Shown one piece after another: positions 45,146 to 53,726 of a stretch of DNA of 64,000 nucleotides (the stretch's first letter is position 1; the number at the start of each line of letters is the position of its first letter). The notes beneath the pieces are model-generated. The model was given only the letters and a program-made list of their open reading frames with translations, ran no database searches and was not told the DNA's origin. A program made the position numbers and the translations under genes. Source of the DNA: Parafannyhessea umbonata (lineage in GTDB: Bacteria > Actinomycetota > Coriobacteriia > Coriobacteriales > Atopobiaceae); the NCBI RefSeq assembly GCF_900111255.1, contig NZ_FOGP01000005.1, forward strand, positions 62,001 to 126,000, given 5' to 3'.

Positions 45146-46165
45146 CTAGCGAAGGCCGTAGAACTCCTGGCGCGGGCTGCGCTCGAGGAGAAGGTCAAAG
45201 GCCTCGGTAGCTCCAATGTTCTCATACAGGACGGCGTGGACCGCGTTTGTGAGCGGCGTCTCTATGGAAAGCTCGGAAGCGAGCTCCCAGATGCTCTGTG
45301 CCGCGCGAGCACCCTCGACGACCATCCCGCTGCGCTCCTCATACTCGGCGAGGGTCACGCCGCGCGAGAGCAACTCGCCGAAGCTGCGGTTTCGCGAGTG
45401 CGGACTCGTGCAGGTCGCCACGAGGTCACCCATGCCGGCAAGCCCCATGCAGGTCATCGGGTCGCCGCCGACTGCGGCGACGATACGGCTGATCTCAGCG
45501 AGGCCGCGCGTCATCACGACCGCCAGGGCATTGTCGCCCATGCCGTTTCCGGCACAGGCGCCACAGGCAATGGCCACGACGTTCTTGGCGGCAGCGCAGA
45601 CCTCGACGCCCGTGAGGTCAGACGAGCAGTACGTGCGGAAGGTCTTCGAGTGGAAGAGGCCCTGCAGCCTCAGGGCAAGCTCAGCATCGCCCGCCGCCAC
45701 GACGGCGGCAGACACCATGCCCTGCCAGATCTCCTCGGCGTGGTTCGGGCCAGATAGCGCCGCGACGCGCGAGGGGTTTCCCAGCTCGTCGGCCACGACG
45801 TCGGTCATGAGCTTATGCGATCCGCCCTCGACGCCCTTCGTGAGAACCACGACGGGGCAGCTCTGGTCGGCATGGGGCGCAAGATCGTGCATGACGCCGC
45901 GAACGAAGGCCGAGGGAACCGCGACGACGATGCAGTCGGCACCGGCGGCCGCCCCCTCAAGAGAGTCCGTTGCGACGACGTTTTCGGGCAGCACGTAGTC
46001 CGAAAGGTGCTTTGGATTCACATGGCGCTCGCAGATCGAGTCCGCGACGGCGACCGTGCGGGCCCACACGCACACCTCGTCGCTGTTGCGGGCTACAAGT
46101 CCGGCGGCGGCGGTTCCCCAGCTGCCCGAGCCGATAACGGCGACGCGCCTGAACTCCGAGGCCAT
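45146..46165 (-). CDS. gpsA: Glycerol-3-phosphate dehydrogenase [NAD(P)+]
   Basis: 339 residues. Makes sn-glycerol-3-phosphate from dihydroxyacetone phosphate for phospholipids. Rossmann motif VIGSGSWGTAAAGLVARN, VPSAFVRGV, TKGVEG, LSGPNHAEEI, the catalytic Lys in CAAAKNVVAIACG, and GMGDLVATCTSPHSRNR. Start with gacgggaggtagccc, 3 bases after the plsY stop; the plsY enzyme uses its product. Confidence 0.95.
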   Translation of the reverse strand: MASEFRRVAVIGSGSWGTAAAGLVARNSDEVCVWARTVAVADSICERHVNPKHLSDYVLPENVVATDSLEGAAAGADCIVVAVPSAFVRGVMHDLAPHADQSCPVVVLTKGVEGGSHKLMTDVVADELGNPSRVAALSGPNHAEEIWQGMVSAAVVAAGDAELALRLQGLFHSKTFRTYCSSDLTGVEVCAAAKNVVAIACGACAGNGMGDNALAVVMTRGLAEISRIVAAVGGDPMTCMGLAGMGDLVATCTSPHSRNRSFGELLSRGVTLAEYEERSGMVVEGARAAQSIWELASELSIETPLTNAVHAVLYENIGATEAFDLLLERSPRQEFYGLR

Positions 46166-46168
46166 GGG

Positions 46169-46852
46169 CTACCTCCCGTCCTCAGAGGAATCCTTGTGAC
46201 GAACCGAGAACTTGCGCTCGCTTCCCGCAAGGAGCTTCTTGATGTTGGAGCGATGGGCCCAAACGACCGTGGCGGAGACCAAGCAGAGCGGGACAAGCGC
46301 CATGCCCCTCACACCGAACGCCGCGGAGAAGAACGAAAGCGACAGGGCCGCAAAGATCGAGCCAAGGGAAACGTATCCCGAGGGCACGGCCAGAACGATG
46401 AAAACGCCAAGCATGGACAATGTGGCATTCCAGCAGAAGCCAAGGCCCGCGCCCAGACCGACGGAAATGCCCTTTCCGCCATGGAAGCCAAGGTAGGGCG
46501 AGAACACGTGCCCGAGCACGCAGAGAGCGTAGAGCGACGTGGTCATCCAGCCGAGCTCGGCAGTGGGAAGGGTGCTCGCCCAATCTCCCCCAAAGGCGAA
46601 GTGTGCCAGGGCAAGGCGCGACAGCATGATCGCAAGGAAGCCCTTGCCGGCATCGCAGAGCAGGGTAGCCACTGCCGCACCGGCACCCGCAGAGCGAGCG
46701 ACGTTGGTCATGCCGATGTTTCCGGAGCCGACGTCACGCACGTCAATGTGCGCAGAGACCCTGGCGATGATCAGTCCACAGGGAATGCCACAAACGAGGA
46801 AGCAGCCAATCGCGCAGAGCGCGAAGGTGAGAAGAGCGTTGGGGGTGATCAC
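46169..46852 (-). CDS. plsY: Acyl-phosphate:glycerol-3-phosphate acyltransferase PlsY
   Basis: 227 residues, about seven hydrophobic helices. The three PlsY loop motifs are visible: DVRDVGSGNIGMTNVAR, the DAGKG segment, and LGFHGGKGISVGLG. First acylation of glycerol-3-phosphate using acyl-phosphate. GTG 46852 starts directly after the der stop. A polar tail of about 20 residues (SVRHKDSSEDGR) is longer than in many homologues. Confidence 0.94.
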   Translation of the reverse strand: MITPNALLTFALCAIGCFLVCGIPCGLIIARVSAHIDVRDVGSGNIGMTNVARSAGAGAAVATLLCDAGKGFLAIMLSRLALAHFAFGGDWASTLPTAELGWMTTSLYALCVLGHVFSPYLGFHGGKGISVGLGAGLGFCWNATLSMLGVFIVLAVPSGYVSLGSIFAALSLSFFSAAFGVRGMALVPLCLVSATVVWAHRSNIKKLLAGSERKFSVRHKDSSEDGR

Positions 46853-48172
46853 CTAGTCGTCCTTCCTTCGGAACTTGAGCCTGATGGGCGTGCCCTCCAG
46901 CGAAAACGTCGCGCGCAGGCGGTTCTCGAGGAAGCGCTCGTAGTTGTCATCGATGAGGTCGGGGGCGTTGCACCAGAAGGTGAACACGGGCGGCTTGTCG
47001 CCGGTCTGCGTCGCATAGTGCACCTTGAGGCGACGGTTCTTCTGGGTGATGGTGTGGCCGCTCTCGCGAATCTGGGTGACCAGCTGATTGAGCTGGGAGG
47101 TCTTGATGTGGTTCGCGTGGTTCTGTGCCGCGTGCACGGCAGCGGCCAGAACCTTGTCGGTGGCGCGACCGGTGAGGGCAGAGACATTGACGGAGGGGGC
47201 CCAGGTAGCGAAGGTCATGCGGGCGTCCAGCGAGTTCACGACGGCGTCGCGCTTCTCGTCATTGTCGATGAGGTCCCATTTGTTGAGGACGATCACGATG
47301 CCGCAGCCGCGGTCGATGGCCATGCCGGCGAGCTTCTGGTCCTGCTCCGTGACGCCGATGGAGGCGTCCACGACGAGCAGGCAGACGTCCGCGCGGTCCA
47401 TGGCGCCAAGGCCGCGGACGAGGCTGTAGTACTCGACATCCTCGTGCACCTGGGTCTTCTTGCGCATGCCGGCAGTATCGACCAGGCGGAACTTTTGGCC
47501 CTTCCACGAAATCATGATGTCGACGGCGTCTCGCGTCGTGCCGGCGACGTCGCTGACGATGGAGCGGTTCTTCTTGGCAAGCCTGTTGGTGAGGGAGGAC
47601 TTTCCGACGTTCGGGCGACCAATGATGGCGATGTTCAGGGCGTCGTCGTCGAGGGGCTCCTCCTCGACGACGTCTGGGAACGCCGCGACGACGTCGTCCA
47701 GAAGGTCGCCGGTGCCGTGGCCGTGGCCCGCGGAGAGAGCGCGCGGCTCGCCGACGCCCAGGGAGTAGTAGTTCCAGTCGTCGAGCATGGTCTCGGGGTT
47801 GTCGATCTTGTTGACGACGAGGAAGACCGGCTTCTTCGACTTGCGGACGACGCGAGCGACCTCCTCGTCCTCGTCGGTGACGCCGACGGTTCCATCGACT
47901 ACGAATACTATGACATCGGCCTCGTCGCATGCCGCGAGGGCCTGCTCGCGGATGCGAGGGGCAAAGACGTCCTTCGACTTGAGAGACTCGATGCCGCCGG
48001 TGTCAATAAGGACGAACTCCCTTCCGTTCCAGTCGCAGTCATGGTAGGAACGGTCGCGCGTGACACCGCGCGACTCGTGGACGATGGCGTCGCGGTTGAC
48101 CGAAAGGCGGTTGACCAAGGTGGACTTGCCCACGTTGGGCCTTCCCACGACGGCAACGACAGGCTTAGACAT
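46853..48172 (-). CDS. der: Ribosome assembly GTPase Der (EngA)
   Basis: 439 residues. Two tandem GTPase domains: G1 GRPNVGKSTLVNRL (about 9) and GRPNVGKSSLTNRL (about 185), G3 DTGG and DTAG, G4 NKID and NKWD, then a KH-like domain (about 355-439). Double-GTPase plus KH is unique to Der, needed for 50S maturation. Start with gaaggagtctt. A 99-base gap separates it from the DUF512 gene upstream. Confidence 0.97.
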   Translation of the reverse strand: MSKPVVAVVGRPNVGKSTLVNRLSVNRDAIVHESRGVTRDRSYHDCDWNGREFVLIDTGGIESLKSKDVFAPRIREQALAACDEADVIVFVVDGTVGVTDEDEEVARVVRKSKKPVFLVVNKIDNPETMLDDWNYYSLGVGEPRALSAGHGHGTGDLLDDVVAAFPDVVEEEPLDDDALNIAIIGRPNVGKSSLTNRLAKKNRSIVSDVAGTTRDAVDIMISWKGQKFRLVDTAGMRKKTQVHEDVEYYSLVRGLGAMDRADVCLLVVDASIGVTEQDQKLAGMAIDRGCGIVIVLNKWDLIDNDEKRDAVVNSLDARMTFATWAPSVNVSALTGRATDKVLAAAVHAAQNHANHIKTSQLNQLVTQIRESGHTITQKNRRLKVHYATQTGDKPPVFTFWCNAPDLIDDNYERFLENRLRATFSLEGTPIRLKFRRKDD

Positions 48173-48271: not shown

Positions 48272-49711
48272 TCAGGACTGGCGGAGGGACTCGACGATGT
48301 GGGCGGGAGACGGCACGGAGACGACTCCCCTGCCGCCGCGGCGCTCGATCTCGGACATGACATGCGCCTGCGTGTCGCCGTCGAGGGTCATCTTGTCGAA
48401 GTTGAACATGACCTCGGGAAGCAGCACGGTCTTTCCCGAGAGGTCCTGCGGAAGCTGGGCGAGAAGGTCGCAGGAGACAATGAGTCCGGTGACGTTGACG
48501 TCGCCGCCGTAGTAGTCGTTGCGGATGGCCTGGGCCTCGATGGCAAAGGGGACGCCCGCCTCGCGGGCCACAGACTCCCAGAGCTCAAGGAACACCTGGG
48601 TCACTTCGAGCGCGGCCTCGCCACACACGAGCAGGGCGCCGGAGCGGCCGCCTTCTTCGGCCGAGCAGACGCGGAGCGCGGCTTCAGCCAAAAGCTCCGG
48701 ACGAGATTCCGCGATGTCGGCCCCCTCGTCGAGGAAGCTGCGAAGCATGCCGATGCCATCGTAGAACTGCGGGTATCCGTCATAGCTCTCGGCAGGCGGA
48801 ACGGGCAGCCTCGCGTCGACGTAGAACTCGTCCGAAAGCTGAAAGCGCGTGATGCCAAGACGCTCGCGGGCACGTTGCTGATACGGCTCTATGAGCCTAA
48901 CGACGGCGCGCGACGCCTCGACGTCCTCGGAGAAGGACTCTGAGAACATCTTCGAATACTTCGTGTAGCCCATGGGGACGAGGGCGAGCGAGGTGACGTT
49001 GTCGTGGGCCTCGACCCAGGACAACGTTTTGCGAAGCTCTTCTCCGTCGTTGATGCCGGCGCAGAGTACGATCTGTCCATGGACCTCGATGCCCGCCTCG
49101 CAGAGACGCTCAAGCACCTCGATCCCGCGGTCCGCGTTGCGGCCGATGAGTGAGCGCCGGACGTCGGGGGATATTGCGTGGATCGAAACGTTCATGGGCT
49201 CCATGCGACACTCGATGATGCGACGCAGGTCCTCGTCGTCGACATTGGTGAGCGTGACAAAGTTGCCCTGGAGGAAGGAGAGGCGGAAGTCGTCGTCGCG
49301 AAGCGTGAGCGACGCGCGGGCGTCTTCGGGAAGCATGCGCATGAAGCAGAACTTGCAGGCGTTCCTGCACGTGCGGATGCCATCGAAGAGGACGTCGGTA
49401 AACTCGACGCCCCAGTCTTGCCCCAGATCGCGCTCGAGCGTGCAGGCAAAGGCTCCCGACTCATCGAGGCCGAGCGCCTCGGGAACGAACACCTCAAGCT
49501 CGGCGATCTGGTCAGAGGCCTCCCAGCGCCAGGAGATGATGTCGGTCAGCCTCGCACCGTTGACCGAGTCGATGCGCATGCCGGGCTCGAGCCCTGCCTC
49601 CCAGGCGGGGCTGCCGTCCTCGACAAACTTGATCCAGGCGCCGTCGGCGCGCTCCCTGGTCGAGGCGTAGTCGCTTCTCTGCTTGCCGTCGTATGCGAGG
49701 TCGCTCGACAC
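48272..49711 (-). CDS. DUF512 radical SAM protein with N-terminal PDZ-like domain
   Basis: 479 residues. PDZ-like N terminus (about 25-75; VEDGSPAWEAGLEPGMRIDSVNG), then a short radical-SAM-like region with FDGIRTCRNACKFCFMRMLP (CX3CX2C near residue 115) and the DUF512 C-terminal domain (about 280-470). The family often adjoins der in Gram-positive anaerobes, as here; its reaction is unknown. GTG 49711 has gagaggggggcac upstream. It starts 32 bases after ispH. Confidence 0.88.
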   Translation of the reverse strand: MSSDLAYDGKQRSDYASTRERADGAWIKFVEDGSPAWEAGLEPGMRIDSVNGARLTDIISWRWEASDQIAELEVFVPEALGLDESGAFACTLERDLGQDWGVEFTDVLFDGIRTCRNACKFCFMRMLPEDARASLTLRDDDFRLSFLQGNFVTLTNVDDEDLRRIIECRMEPMNVSIHAISPDVRRSLIGRNADRGIEVLERLCEAGIEVHGQIVLCAGINDGEELRKTLSWVEAHDNVTSLALVPMGYTKYSKMFSESFSEDVEASRAVVRLIEPYQQRARERLGITRFQLSDEFYVDARLPVPPAESYDGYPQFYDGIGMLRSFLDEGADIAESRPELLAEAALRVCSAEEGGRSGALLVCGEAALEVTQVFLELWESVAREAGVPFAIEAQAIRNDYYGGDVNVTGLIVSCDLLAQLPQDLSGKTVLLPEVMFNFDKMTLDGDTQAHVMSEIERRGGRGVVSVPSPAHIVESLRQS

Positions 49712-49743: not shown

Positions 49744-50625
49744 CTAGTCGTCGGACTCCGCCGCGGGTACCGACTCTGCGACGGAGCCGCCGGTAAGAGC
49801 CCCTATGGTCCTGACGACGTGGTCGATCTGATCCTGCGGGGTGCTCGCGCCGGCGGTGACGCCGATGGTCTGCGCGCCCGCGAACCAGGATCCCTGGAGT
49901 TCGTCGGCGTCCTCGATGTGATGCACGCGAGAGCAGGACCCGAGGCAGATCTGGGCCAGCCGGCACGTGTTTGCCGAGACGCGCCCGCCCACCACGACCA
50001 TGACGTCGGCCTCTGCGGCAAGTCGAGCGGCGGCGGCCTGGCGTCTGGAGGTCGCCTCGCAGATCGTGTCCATAACGCGAACCTCGTCGACCCGACCTAT
50101 GAGCGCGCTGACCAGCTCGCGCAGACGCGCGCGCGACTGGGTCGTCTGGACGACGAGGCCCACGCGCCTCTTGAGCCTGAGCCCTTCGAGGTCCTCAGGT
50201 GCCTGGACAACGGTGGCGCCCGGCGCGTGCCCGAGAGTGCCGAGCACCTCCGGGTGACCTGGCTCGCCGAAGACAAGCACGTCGTAACCCTCGTTGGTAA
50301 GCGTCTCGGCCGCGCGATGGGCGCGCACGACGAAGGGGCAGGTGGCGTCGAGGACGGCTTCCGCACTCGAGCGTGCGAGTTCCTCCTCGGCGGGCGTCAC
50401 CCCGTGCGTGCGGAGCACGAGCGTGCCGCCATCGTACTGGTCGGGAGCGGAGGCGACGCTCACGCCGGAAGCCTCGAGCTCGCCGACGACCTTGGGATTA
50501 TGGATGAGGGGACCCAGCGTGTGGATGGGACCCCGCGCGTTTGCGGCGGCCTTGCGAACGAGTTCAAGTGCACGGTTGACGCCGTAGCAGGCTCCCGCCT
50601 CGCTGGCAATGACGATTCTGGGCAT
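49744..50625 (-). CDS. ispH: 4-hydroxy-3-methylbut-2-enyl diphosphate reductase
   Basis: 293 residues, last enzyme of the MEP isoprenoid pathway, [4Fe-4S] dependent. Cluster cysteines lie in SEAGACYGVNRA, DATCPFVVRAH and VSANTCRLAQI; the active-site regions GPLIHNP, THGVTP and GHPEVLGTLGHA are present. It supplies DMAPP, the substrate of MiaA in this window. It starts 8 bases after the cmk-plsC stop. Confidence 0.94.
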   Translation of the reverse strand: MPRIVIASEAGACYGVNRALELVRKAAANARGPIHTLGPLIHNPKVVGELEASGVSVASAPDQYDGGTLVLRTHGVTPAEEELARSSAEAVLDATCPFVVRAHRAAETLTNEGYDVLVFGEPGHPEVLGTLGHAPGATVVQAPEDLEGLRLKRRVGLVVQTTQSRARLRELVSALIGRVDEVRVMDTICEATSRRQAAAARLAAEADVMVVVGGRVSANTCRLAQICLGSCSRVHHIEDADELQGSWFAGAQTIGVTAGASTPQDQIDHVVRTIGALTGGSVAESVPAAESDD

Positions 50626-50632
50626 TTCTCAC

Positions 50633-52213
50633 CTACATCTTTCCGGGATGCTCGCGGCGCAGGTCGTCACGAATGGCGTAGACGCGCTCCATGGCAACGC
50701 GCTCCATCTGGGCGCACTGCAGCTTGCGGCCCCTCACGCCGAGGGACGAGAACTCGATGGGCTCGCCAGCCCTGACGAAGACGCGACCGAGGCGCTTGAG
50801 GTGCTCGCCGCGCGGGGTGATGTCGCGGGCGCCGACGATGGCGACGGGCTGGACGGGGGCCTTGGCCATCTGTGCGATGAGCGCGAAGCCACCATGGATG
50901 GTGACCGGCTCGTCGTCGGACTTGACGCGAGTGCCCTCGGGGTAGATGAGGACATCCTCTCCCCTCTCGAGGGCCCACTGTGCGCGGCGGACTGCCTTGA
51001 GGTCGGCGGTGCCGCGAGCTACGGGGATTCCGCCGACGCGCGAGAAGAGCCAGGTGGCCGGGGCGATCTTGTCAAACTCGCTCTTGTAAATCGGACGTAT
51101 GCGCCTACCGTGGAACCATGCGGAGACAACGACGATGATCGGCTCGAGCATCGAAACGTGGTTCATGACGATGACGCGGCCGTGCTCGCCGTCCCAGAGG
51201 CCGTCGGACCCCTCAATATGCCAGGGCCAGAGAATCTTGGTGAGCAGGCCGAGCAGGCAGACGACGAAGCCCAGCAGCGCGCGAGCGGGCAGCGGGTACT
51301 CGCGCATGGCGTGGTCGTAGTAGTCCACGTAGGCGTTGCCACGGAAGGCATGCAGGCGGCCCGAGGGAGCGCCGCCGCGCTTGGACACGTGCCTCGAACC
51401 GCCGGAGCCGGATCGATTGGGCTTGGCAGCGGACTTGGAGGCACCATTGGGGGCGAGATTCGCCTTGGGAGCGGACTTGGAGGCACCATCGGGGGCGAGA
51501 TTCGCCTTGGGAGCGGACGATGCCTTGGCGCGAGCGGCCTCCATCAGATCTACCACGCGCTGGATCACCTGCTCGAGCGTGAGGTCGGACGAGTCGATGA
51601 CCACCGCGTCGTCGGCAGGGCGCAGCGGGGACTCCTTGCGAGTCGAGTCAAGTTGGTCGCGACGCCTGAGGTCCTCGAGTATGCGCGCCTCCTGGGCAGC
51701 GTCGGCTGCGGCGGAAGCGTCCCTGGCGGCATCGCCGCCCTCGCGCTGCACGGCCCTGCGATGCGCGCGGGCCTTTGCGTCAGCGGTGAGAAACACCTTG
51801 ACCTCGGCATCGGGAAAGACGACGGTGCCGATGTCGCGACCCTCGGCCACCACGTCGCCCGAACCGGCAATCTGGCGCTGGCGATCGACGAGGGCGGCTC
51901 GAACCGCAGGGACGGCGGACACGGCGGAAACGTTGCGGTCGACCTCGGGGGTGCGAATCTGGTCGGTAACGTCCTCGCCGTTCACGATGACCGTCTGGCC
52001 GGAGGCAGAGCTGCCAAACAAGATGGAGCAGTCCTTCTCGACCGACGCGACGGCCTTGGCGTCCGACACGTCCACGCCCGCACGCAGGCACAGAAGCGTG
52101 ACGGAGCGATACATCGCGCCCGTGTCGAGGAAGGTGAGGCCGCAGCGCCCGGCGATTGCGTGGGCCACGGTGGACTTGCCGGAGCCGGCGGGTCCGTCAA
52201 TTGCGACTATCAC
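50633..52213 (-). CDS. cmk: Cytidylate kinase - PlsC-type acyltransferase fusion
   Basis: 526 residues with two enzymes in one frame. 1-225: cytidylate kinase (IDGPAGSGKSTVAHAIA, LDTGAMYRSVTLLCL, VAEGRDIGTVVFPDA). About 226-285: Ala/Lys/Pro/Ser-rich linker with a 14-residue repeat. About 300-526: PlsC-type 1-acylglycerol-3-phosphate acyltransferase with a membrane helix (FVVCLLGLLTKILWPW), MNHVSMLEP at motif I (HX4E instead of the usual HX4D), GGIPVARG, and YPEGTR. GTG 52213 directly follows the preceding stop (TAAGTG). CMP kinase feeds CTP/CDP-diacylglycerol synthesis and PlsC makes phosphatidate, so the fusion joins two phospholipid inputs. Confidence 0.9.
   Translation of the reverse strand: MIVAIDGPAGSGKSTVAHAIAGRCGLTFLDTGAMYRSVTLLCLRAGVDVSDAKAVASVEKDCSILFGSSASGQTVIVNGEDVTDQIRTPEVDRNVSAVSAVPAVRAALVDRQRQIAGSGDVVAEGRDIGTVVFPDAEVKVFLTADAKARAHRRAVQREGGDAARDASAAADAAQEARILEDLRRRDQLDSTRKESPLRPADDAVVIDSSDLTLEQVIQRVVDLMEAARAKASSAPKANLAPDGASKSAPKANLAPNGASKSAAKPNRSGSGGSRHVSKRGGAPSGRLHAFRGNAYVDYYDHAMREYPLPARALLGFVVCLLGLLTKILWPWHIEGSDGLWDGEHGRVIVMNHVSMLEPIIVVVSAWFHGRRIRPIYKSEFDKIAPATWLFSRVGGIPVARGTADLKAVRRAQWALERGEDVLIYPEGTRVKSDDEPVTIHGGFALIAQMAKAPVQPVAIVGARDITPRGEHLKRLGRVFVRAGEPIEFSSLGVRGRKLQCAQMERVAMERVYAIRDDLRREHPGKM
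51428..51518 (-). repeat. 42-bp tandem repeat in the cmk-plsC linker
   Basis: Two complete 42-base units begin at 51428 and 51470, with a partial third from 51512. They differ at single bases. In frame they encode a 14-residue unit of the type SAPKANLAPDGASK within the interdomain linker. Unit number may vary between strains. Confidence 0.85.
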
Positions 52214-52900
52214 TTATCTATCACTCCCGGAGATATTGGTGGTTGAGGTGCTATCGGCACCCAAGAGCTGCGGATTCTGCGTGCGGCGAATAACTTCCTC
52301 GGGGGCAAGGCCAAGACCAGCGAGGGAGAACGTGTCGCCGTTGCAGGTAAGGACCTGCGAGCTGACGTTGGGGATCACAAGGTTCCAGAACGTCTGAAGC
52401 GGCGTGTCGAAGGCCGCCCCCAGGAAGGCGCGGGTGAATGCGCCGTGCGCCACGAGCGAGGTGCGACCAGAAAGAGGCCTGAGCTCGTCGAGCAGACGCT
52501 TGCAGCGCTCGTACATGTGCTCGAACGACTCCGCGCCCGGTGCCGCGACGGAGTGGCCGTCCTCGTCGAGCCTCCAGGGGAAGTCATAGCCCATCTGACG
52601 CGCCTCAAGGACCGTCTTGCCCTGGAGCGAGCCGAACTCGATCTCGGCGAGGTCCGGCTTCACGACGCACTCGATGCCGAGGCGACTGGCGGCCTCCTCG
52701 GCGATGGACTTGCAGCGAGAAAGCGGCGAACACCAGATGCGGTCGGGTTCCCAGGCGACGATGGCCTCGATGGCCCGGTACATCTGCTCCTCTCCCTCAG
52801 GCGTCAGGTCGACGTCATCGCGTCCCGACAGCTGCAGAGCCTTGTTAGCCCGCGTCTGCGGATGCCTGGTGAGAAGAATGCGATGCTCTGTTCTAGCCAA
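52214..52900 (-). CDS. Histidine phosphatase family protein (phosphoglycerate mutase-like)
   Basis: 228 residues. Branch 1 histidine phosphatase fold: LLTRHPQTRAN holds the phospho-accepting His, but the usual RHG is RHP; then WCSPLSRCKSIAEEAA, EIEFGSLQGKT (acid), and VAHGAFTRAFL (second His). It is more likely a cofactor-independent phosphatase of the CobC/GpmB type than glycolytic mutase. TTG 52900 is chosen because aaaggagg lies 6-7 bases upstream; longer frames lack a ribosome binding site. Confidence 0.85.
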   Translation of the reverse strand: MARTEHRILLTRHPQTRANKALQLSGRDDVDLTPEGEEQMYRAIEAIVAWEPDRIWCSPLSRCKSIAEEAASRLGIECVVKPDLAEIEFGSLQGKTVLEARQMGYDFPWRLDEDGHSVAAPGAESFEHMYERCKRLLDELRPLSGRTSLVAHGAFTRAFLGAAFDTPLQTFWNLVIPNVSSQVLTCNGDTFSLAGLGLAPEEVIRRTQNPQLLGADSTSTTNISGSDR

Positions 52901-53726
52901 GATGGTCCTCCTTTGCCCGCGCTCGGGCGTCAGGCGCCTTGCCCGAGCGAGCGATCCCAAGTATTTCCTGCCGTTCGCGCTCGTTGAGCGGGCGCCACTC
53001 CCCCGGAAGCAGTCCCGCGAGTTCAAGGGGTCCAAACTGGTCGCGATGAAGCCTCACGACCTCGTGACCCACCTGTTTGAGCATGCGCTTCACCTGGTGC
53101 TTTCTGCCCTCGTGGATGCGCAGCGAGACGACCGAGTGGCCATAGGGAAGCCCCTCAGGGATGACGGGGGTGGCCCTTGGGTCGTCCGCGGCGAGAGATT
53201 CTGCCTCGGCGGGAGCCGAGACGCCGTCGTCGAGCGGCACGCCCTCACGAAGGCGACGGAGCTGGTTGGGGGTTGGCATTCCCTTTACCAGCGCGACATA
53301 GCGCTTCCACACGTGATGCGACGGGTGGAGCATCTGGTTGCCGAGCTCACCGTTGGTAGTGAAGAAAAGCAGCCCCGTCGTGTCGCCGTCGAGCCTGCCA
53401 ACCGGGAACAGCCCCGGATAGCGGTCCGTCGGAACCAGGCTCGCAACACAGGGCCTGCCCTGGGGATCGCTCATCGTGGTGATGTATCCGCCGGGCTTGT
53501 ACAGCACGAGGTAGGTGTGGTCCTCGGCGAGCGTGTGAACGACGCCGTCGACGGTCACAACGTCGACGGCGGGATCGACCTTGGTGCCAAGCCCGGTCAC
53601 CACGACTCCGTTGACGGCGACGCGCCCGGCCGTCATGAGGTTCTCGGAACCCCTGCGGCTCGCGACGCCAGCACGCGCCAGGAACTTCTGGAGGCGCATG
53701 GTGTACGAGATTTCCTGCTTATACAC
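52893..53726 (-). CDS. Pseudouridine synthase, RluB/RsuA family
   Basis: 277 residues from GTG 53726. S4 domain (about 10-60; MRLQKFLARAGVASRRGSEN), then RsuA-type catalytic domain with LFPVGRLDGDTTGLLFFTTNG, whose Asp is catalytic. It modifies a uridine in 23S (RluB) or 16S (RsuA) rRNA; Gram-positive homologues are usually RluB. GTG 53726 has ggggag 4 bases upstream, within the scpB stop region. ATG 53699 would start at MRLQKFL, which fits the family but has a weaker site. scpA-scpB-rluB is a common order. Confidence 0.9.
   Translation of the reverse strand: MYKQEISYTMRLQKFLARAGVASRRGSENLMTAGRVAVNGVVVTGLGTKVDPAVDVVTVDGVVHTLAEDHTYLVLYKPGGYITTMSDPQGRPCVASLVPTDRYPGLFPVGRLDGDTTGLLFFTTNGELGNQMLHPSHHVWKRYVALVKGMPTPNQLRRLREGVPLDDGVSAPAEAESLAADDPRATPVIPEGLPYGHSVVSLRIHEGRKHQVKRMLKQVGHEVVRLHRDQFGPLELAGLLPGEWRPLNERERQEILGIARSGKAPDARARAKEDHLG

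Follow-up and report, generated by a model that had tools for sequence, protein, structure and literature searches.

Across the Atopobiaceae and Coriobacteriaceae, the acid of acyltransferase motif I in PlsC appears to have been exchanged repeatedly between aspartate and glutamate, in a protein that is often the only LPA acyltransferase-family member of its genome. The cmk-plsC fusion of Parafannyhessea umbonata carries the glutamate form, and judged by sequence it seems to be an otherwise ordinary pair of enzymes. We are fairly confident that it is a two-enzyme housekeeping protein, a CMP kinase and an LPA acyltransferase on a disordered tether, which arose from an operon pair joined in frame and in which Glu357 is the partner of His352. 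We also think it probable, with some reservation, that the acidic member of the catalytic His-Asp dyad is interchangeable in the LPA acyltransferases of these two families, with six or more replacements on branches of good support, many of them where the genome has no other such enzyme.

The motif I aspartate is treated as near-invariant, and its presence serves to judge whether an acyltransferase is active. If the exchange is as we propose, the lineage is a natural experiment on the rebuilding of a catalytic dyad, with sister species that differ at that residue. The repeated exchange is noteworthy because in human AGPAT1 the replacement of Asp109 by Asn or Glu is reported to abolish activity; E178Q is reported there to be inactivating as well (PMC4280512).

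A CMP kinase and a PlsC-type acyltransferase in one frame

The window (the whole stretch of DNA that was analysed) comprises 64,000 nucleotides. A first-pass annotation had described a cytidylate kinase fused to PlsC with HX4E in motif I, a 42-bp tandem repeat in the linker, and gpsA and plsY in the same run of genes, and all of these observations were borne out (Table 1). PF02224 and PF01553 both match within one frame of 526 residues; NHVSMLE runs from H352 to E357 with GAG as the acid codon; and gpsA and plsY lie downstream of the fusion on the same strand. A sequencing or assembly error at the Glu codon is excluded, as Glu is found in all three typed genomes of the genus. Recurrence in 64 (fusion) and 41 (Glu) of 124 typed genomes of the family also shows that neither trait is a chance event.

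Table 1 Features of the cmk-plsC fusion gene and of its neighbourhood. Positions refer to the window; aa, residues of the fusion protein.
Feature	Position	Strand	Remarks
Histidine phosphatase gene, upstream	52214..53035	-	PF00300; true start probably inside this ORF
cmk-plsC fusion ORF, 526 aa	50633..52213	-	stop-free; GTG start directly after TAA of upstream gene
CMP kinase domain, aa 3-224	51542..52207	-	PF02224, TIGR00017; P-loop GPAGSGKST
Linker, aa 222-289	51347..51550	-	composition and AF2 model
42-bp in-frame tandem repeat	51415..51518	-	period 42, 2.5 copies, 14-aa unit, 93% matches
PlsC-like acyltransferase half, aa 290-526	50636..51346	-	PF01553 match at 50837-51187, aa 343-459
Motif I, H352-V-S-M-L-E357 (HX4E)	51143..51160	-	within NHVSMLE; Glu codon GAG, 51143-51145
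Motif III, YPEGTR, aa 424-429	50927..50944	-	
ispH (LytB), next gene downstream	49744..50625	-	PF02401
PDZ / radical-SAM / DUF512 gene	48272..49711	-	
der (EngA GTPase)	46853..48172	-	
plsY	46169..46852	-	PF02660
gpsA	45146..46165	-	PF07479, PF01210

The CMP kinase half belongs to PF02224 (239 bits, cut-off 26) and to TIGR00017 (229.3 bits, cut-off 135.55). The PlsC half, in the same frame, belongs to PF01553 with 59.6 bits (gathering cut-off 23) and stays below the curated cut-off of TIGR00530, AGP_acyltrn (51.1 bits versus 102.95). It departs from the canonical HX4D by its GAG-encoded glutamate, while the motif II arginine (GGIPVARG) and the motif III PEGTR (YPEGTR) are both intact. Among the NCBIfam models matched by the fusion protein there is none for a CMP kinase-PlsC pair.

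An AF2 model of the PlsC half is of high quality (pLDDT 93.2, pTM 0.91). Its best match among solved structures is Thermotoga maritima PlsC (5kym_A, Z 19.9, rmsd 3.5, 208 aligned residues; Foldseek E 2.4e-11, sequence E 1.8e-20), and with Z scores of 14.8-16.4 against GPATs it has the PlsC/GPAT fold. The full-length model consists of two confident domains with residues 238-280 disordered (pLDDT under 50) and has a pTM of 0.54, and thus no fixed contact between the two enzymes is predicted. We propose that the N-terminal half phosphorylates CMP/dCMP, that the disordered tether would let the two enzymes fold and work independently, and that Glu357 most likely replaces the motif I aspartate as the partner of His352.

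The linker of the window protein is rich in Ala, Ser, Gly, Lys and Pro. Linkers of 56 fused representatives range from 19 to 174 aa (median 56) and are rich in Ala, Lys, Glu and Pro. A TRF repeat with a score of at least 40 occurs in 19 of these 56 linkers, and although the array in the window scores highest, it is therefore one of many of the same kind.

The glutamate form is often the only PF01553 protein

In the host assembly (2.06 Mb, 99.8% complete) the fusion gene accounts for the only PF01553 protein and for the only full CMP kinase. A second PF02224 match covers only 37 positions (20.5 bits, below cut-off), and acyltransferases of families PF19576 and PF03279 have no match in this genome; plsX is present, and plsY and gpsA lie inside the window. 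That the fusion is the sole PF01553 protein of so complete a genome argues that it is most likely a working LPA acyltransferase.

The same holds for five further genomes (G191, G220, G114, G290, G216), in which the Glu-form PlsC is the only PF01553 protein. Of the 15 Glu-form genomes examined, however, ten encode a further PF01553 protein, each with HX4D, which speaks against the Glu form as the working enzyme. Yet in all ten of these second proteins (L261, L262, L263, L266, L278-L282, L284) PEGTR is replaced by PEGN, PEGD, PEGV, PSGD or PERE. Coriobacteriaceae-type genomes (family f3) have exactly one PF01553 match in 64 of 65 cases and none in the remaining one.

For the two close Glu forms L041 and L042, dN and dS are 0.028 and 0.35 in the PlsC half, and 0.025 and 0.29 in the CMK half. 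These values show that close Glu forms are under purifying selection in the PlsC half just as in the CMK half. Sole-copy status, together with dN far below dS, argues for a working enzyme; the reported inactivity of human AGPAT1 with Glu at this position argues against it.

Repeated exchange between aspartate and glutamate

HX4E was found in 41 of the 124 typed genomes of the family, a count that includes as Glu a fragment at a contig end (L211) which reads NP for NH. It also occurs in all 21 Coriobacteriaceae-type loci inspected (19 named and 2 others). Collinsella has the Glu form, and loci L035 and L065, listed as Parafannyhessea, have the Asp form. Glu is absent from the 18 loci of families f2, f4 and f6, from the 20 distant loci, and from the 29 scored loci of a class sample (30 fetched, L027 having no scorable row), the latter being best-scoring PF01553 matches, a choice that may favour Asp.

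In an alignment of 151 proteins, which leaves out four fragmentary or duplicate rows (L160, L162, L211, L239) and three others whose contig lacks cmk, the motif I acid is Asp in 90 and Glu in 61 cases with no other residue, and the histidine is present in all 151. The acid codons are GAG (54), GAA (7), GAC (62) and GAT (28), and thus the two states are one base change apart.

A CMK + PlsC tree was computed from 129 of the 151 rows (22 near-identical rows left out), with the Asp/Glu and Phe/Tyr columns removed. At least 11 Asp/Glu and 21 Phe/Tyr changes are required on this tree, which comes from a rapid search, contains long branches flagged by treekit (L121, L237, L253, L234, L112) and does not give the direction of the changes. 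Six Asp/Glu contrasts fall on branches with an SH-aLRT of at least 95. Both states occur inside genera g10, g18, g19 and g25. A PlsC-only tree still requires 10 Asp/Glu changes (3 starred independent contrasts) and a CMK-only tree 13 (4), and therefore a single spread of the Glu-type PlsC domain by recombination does not explain the distribution.

No second-site change was found that tracks Glu beyond chance. Val at 459 was the strongest column over eight Glu/Asp contrasts picked by hand (6 of 8 contrasts, none against), but 21% of label swaps did as well. A coupling between Glu and Tyr in motif III held for all six Glu forms among the first 30 fused loci, but Glu with Phe and Asp with Tyr are common across all lineages, and the pair test on the tree was not significant. 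At position 358, directly behind the motif I acid, 75 of 78 Asp forms have Pro but only 27 of 51 Glu forms do (Val and Thr being common there), a pattern that largely follows two clades of the tree. Two proteins with HX4D, L195 (genome G277, genus g24) and L094, have FPQGTR as motif III, with Gln for the Glu of PEGTR; G277 is 99% complete and has a single PF01553 match. In the open-licence literature, acyltransferases with HX4E led to lipid A enzymes and to a poplar esterase, and no report that spells the motif HXXXXE was found.

With sole LPA acyltransferases in either state, the clade offers Asp/Glu pairs, within g10, g18 and g19 as well as between g1 and g9. Such pairs allow one to ask what permits function with Glu, and whether the choice of acyl chain or acceptor shifts.

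The fusion is probably a version of an old gene pair

The family was surveyed with one genome per species. A search of 140 genomes with the whole fusion protein gave matches in 137, and 124 were typed; the 16 untyped genomes are the three without a match and 13, by subtraction, that were not fetched. Among the 124, cmk and plsC are fused in 64, adjacent and separate in 57, and undetermined in 3. Fused loci include those of P. umbonata and Atopobium minutum, split loci that of Tractidigestivibacter scatoligenes, and genera g3 (17 of 17 typed) and g12 (8 of 8 typed) are wholly split. Outside the family the fusion was not found, neither in 14 Eggerthellaceae-type (f2), 2 f4, 2 f6 and 2 Coriobacteriaceae-type (f3) loci nor in the 19 named Coriobacteriaceae loci (L102-L119, L122), where the genes are always separate and adjacent. 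In the distant loci L124-L143, cmk lies beside plsC in 17 of 20 cases, all 17 clostridial. In one f2 genome with a single contig (G385, contig C1, 2243929-2244920) the CMP kinase appears in two pieces with different open-frame lengths, due to a frameshift or an error.

The order scpA-scpB-cmk-plsC-ispH-DUF512-der-plsY is also found in genomes with separate genes (Collinsella, split Atopobiaceae), and cmk-plsC-ispH extends to f2 genomes and Oscillospiraceae. This neighbourhood thus predates the fusion, because the order is the same where cmk and plsC are separate. Among the 73 split junctions, the plsC start most often overlaps the cmk stop by 4 nt (33 cases) or lies 0-3 nt behind it (26), with the start picked as the one nearest to -4, which favours the 4-nt overlap class. 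Given the old shared gene order and the overlapping or abutting junctions, we read the fusion as a long-standing coupled pair whose two genes have come into one frame. It probably arose from an ancestral operon pair of this kind, in which slight shifts of frame would suffice to turn one state into the other.

The CMK + PlsC tree (129 rows) calls for no fewer than 12 transitions between the fused and the split state, and fusion and Glu vary independently of each other. The suggestion that the locus is a lipid-synthesis control point found no support, as the gene order predates the fusion and the two states interchange this often. Separate cmk and plsC genes with HX4D, which the first-pass annotation had set against its own reading, do occur in many relatives (genera g3, g12, g14); neither the fusion nor the Glu is therefore unique, yet both are real. 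The pair illustrates how readily genes that overlap in an operon become joined or separated. Reports of a cytidylate kinase-PlsC acyltransferase fusion or of an Olsenella cytidylate kinase were not found in the open-licence literature.

Alternative readings

PlsC is membrane-bound, and at the membrane CMP is a product of CDP-DAG-dependent synthases, while CdsA uses CTP together with the phosphatidic acid that PlsC supplies. The fusion might thus be adaptive by tethering the CMP kinase where CMP is released and CTP is used. This substrate logic of established pathways, the fused state of 64 of the 124 typed genomes and the Ala/Lys/Glu/Pro-rich tethers of 19-174 aa in the 56 fused representatives speak for such a role. 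We nevertheless consider it unlikely, given that the states have changed at least 12 times with g3 and g12 wholly split, that the adjacency is older than the fusion, and that a fixed arrangement of the domains is not predicted (pTM 0.54).

The remaining alternatives concern the glutamate. The partner of His352 could be another carboxylate, in which case the motif I acid would be structural, with Asp and Glu freely exchangeable. There are reported precedents, as the histidine of PatA pairs with E200 rather than with the HX4D aspartate (PMC4792965) and H122 of LpxM pairs with D192 (PMC6286764). A candidate second carboxylate, D404 (column D115), lies four residues after the motif II arginine, is invariant in 107 aligned proteins, and falls on an alanine of 5kym in the HMM alignment. 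However, all 151 proteins keep an acid at motif I, while a purely structural site would likely vary more, and among the fold matches PlsC (Z 19.9) ranks above PatA (13.1) and LpxM (10.9), so that we regard a relocated partner as quite improbable. Least credible, with a very small chance of being correct, is that the PlsC half has decayed or been put to another use, its acyltransferase activity lost through the Glu, as D109E is reported to inactivate human AGPAT1 (PMC4280512). The score below the TIGR00530 cut-off would fit decay, but the Glu form is the sole PF01553 protein of the host and five further genomes, is under purifying selection like the CMK half, retains motifs II and III, and alternates with Asp forms on the tree while the other motifs stay intact. 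An active enzyme in which Glu357 takes the place of the aspartate thus remains our preferred reading.

Comparison with known systems

CMP kinase is also joined to housekeeping proteins in panC-cmk (PRK13477), cmk-der (PRK09518) and aroA-cmk (PRK11860), and a cmk-rpsA fusion is reported for Treponema pallidum (PMC3570794); in the window the partner is PlsC instead, which is thereby added to the list of cmk fusion partners. The PlsC half resembles T. maritima PlsC (5kym, PF01553) in its fold over 208 residues, the N-H of motif I, the motif II arginine and PEGTR in motif III, but differs from it in having Glu for the motif I Asp and in being fused to a CMP kinase. With the lipid A acyltransferases LpxL and LpxM (HX4E/D) it shares a glutamate at a motif position where that residue matters, as E137A is reported to lower the activity of E. 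coli LpxL 3000-fold (PMC6286764). These enzymes belong to another family (PF03279, absent from the host genome) and act on another substrate, and the fold match to LpxM reaches only Z 10.9.
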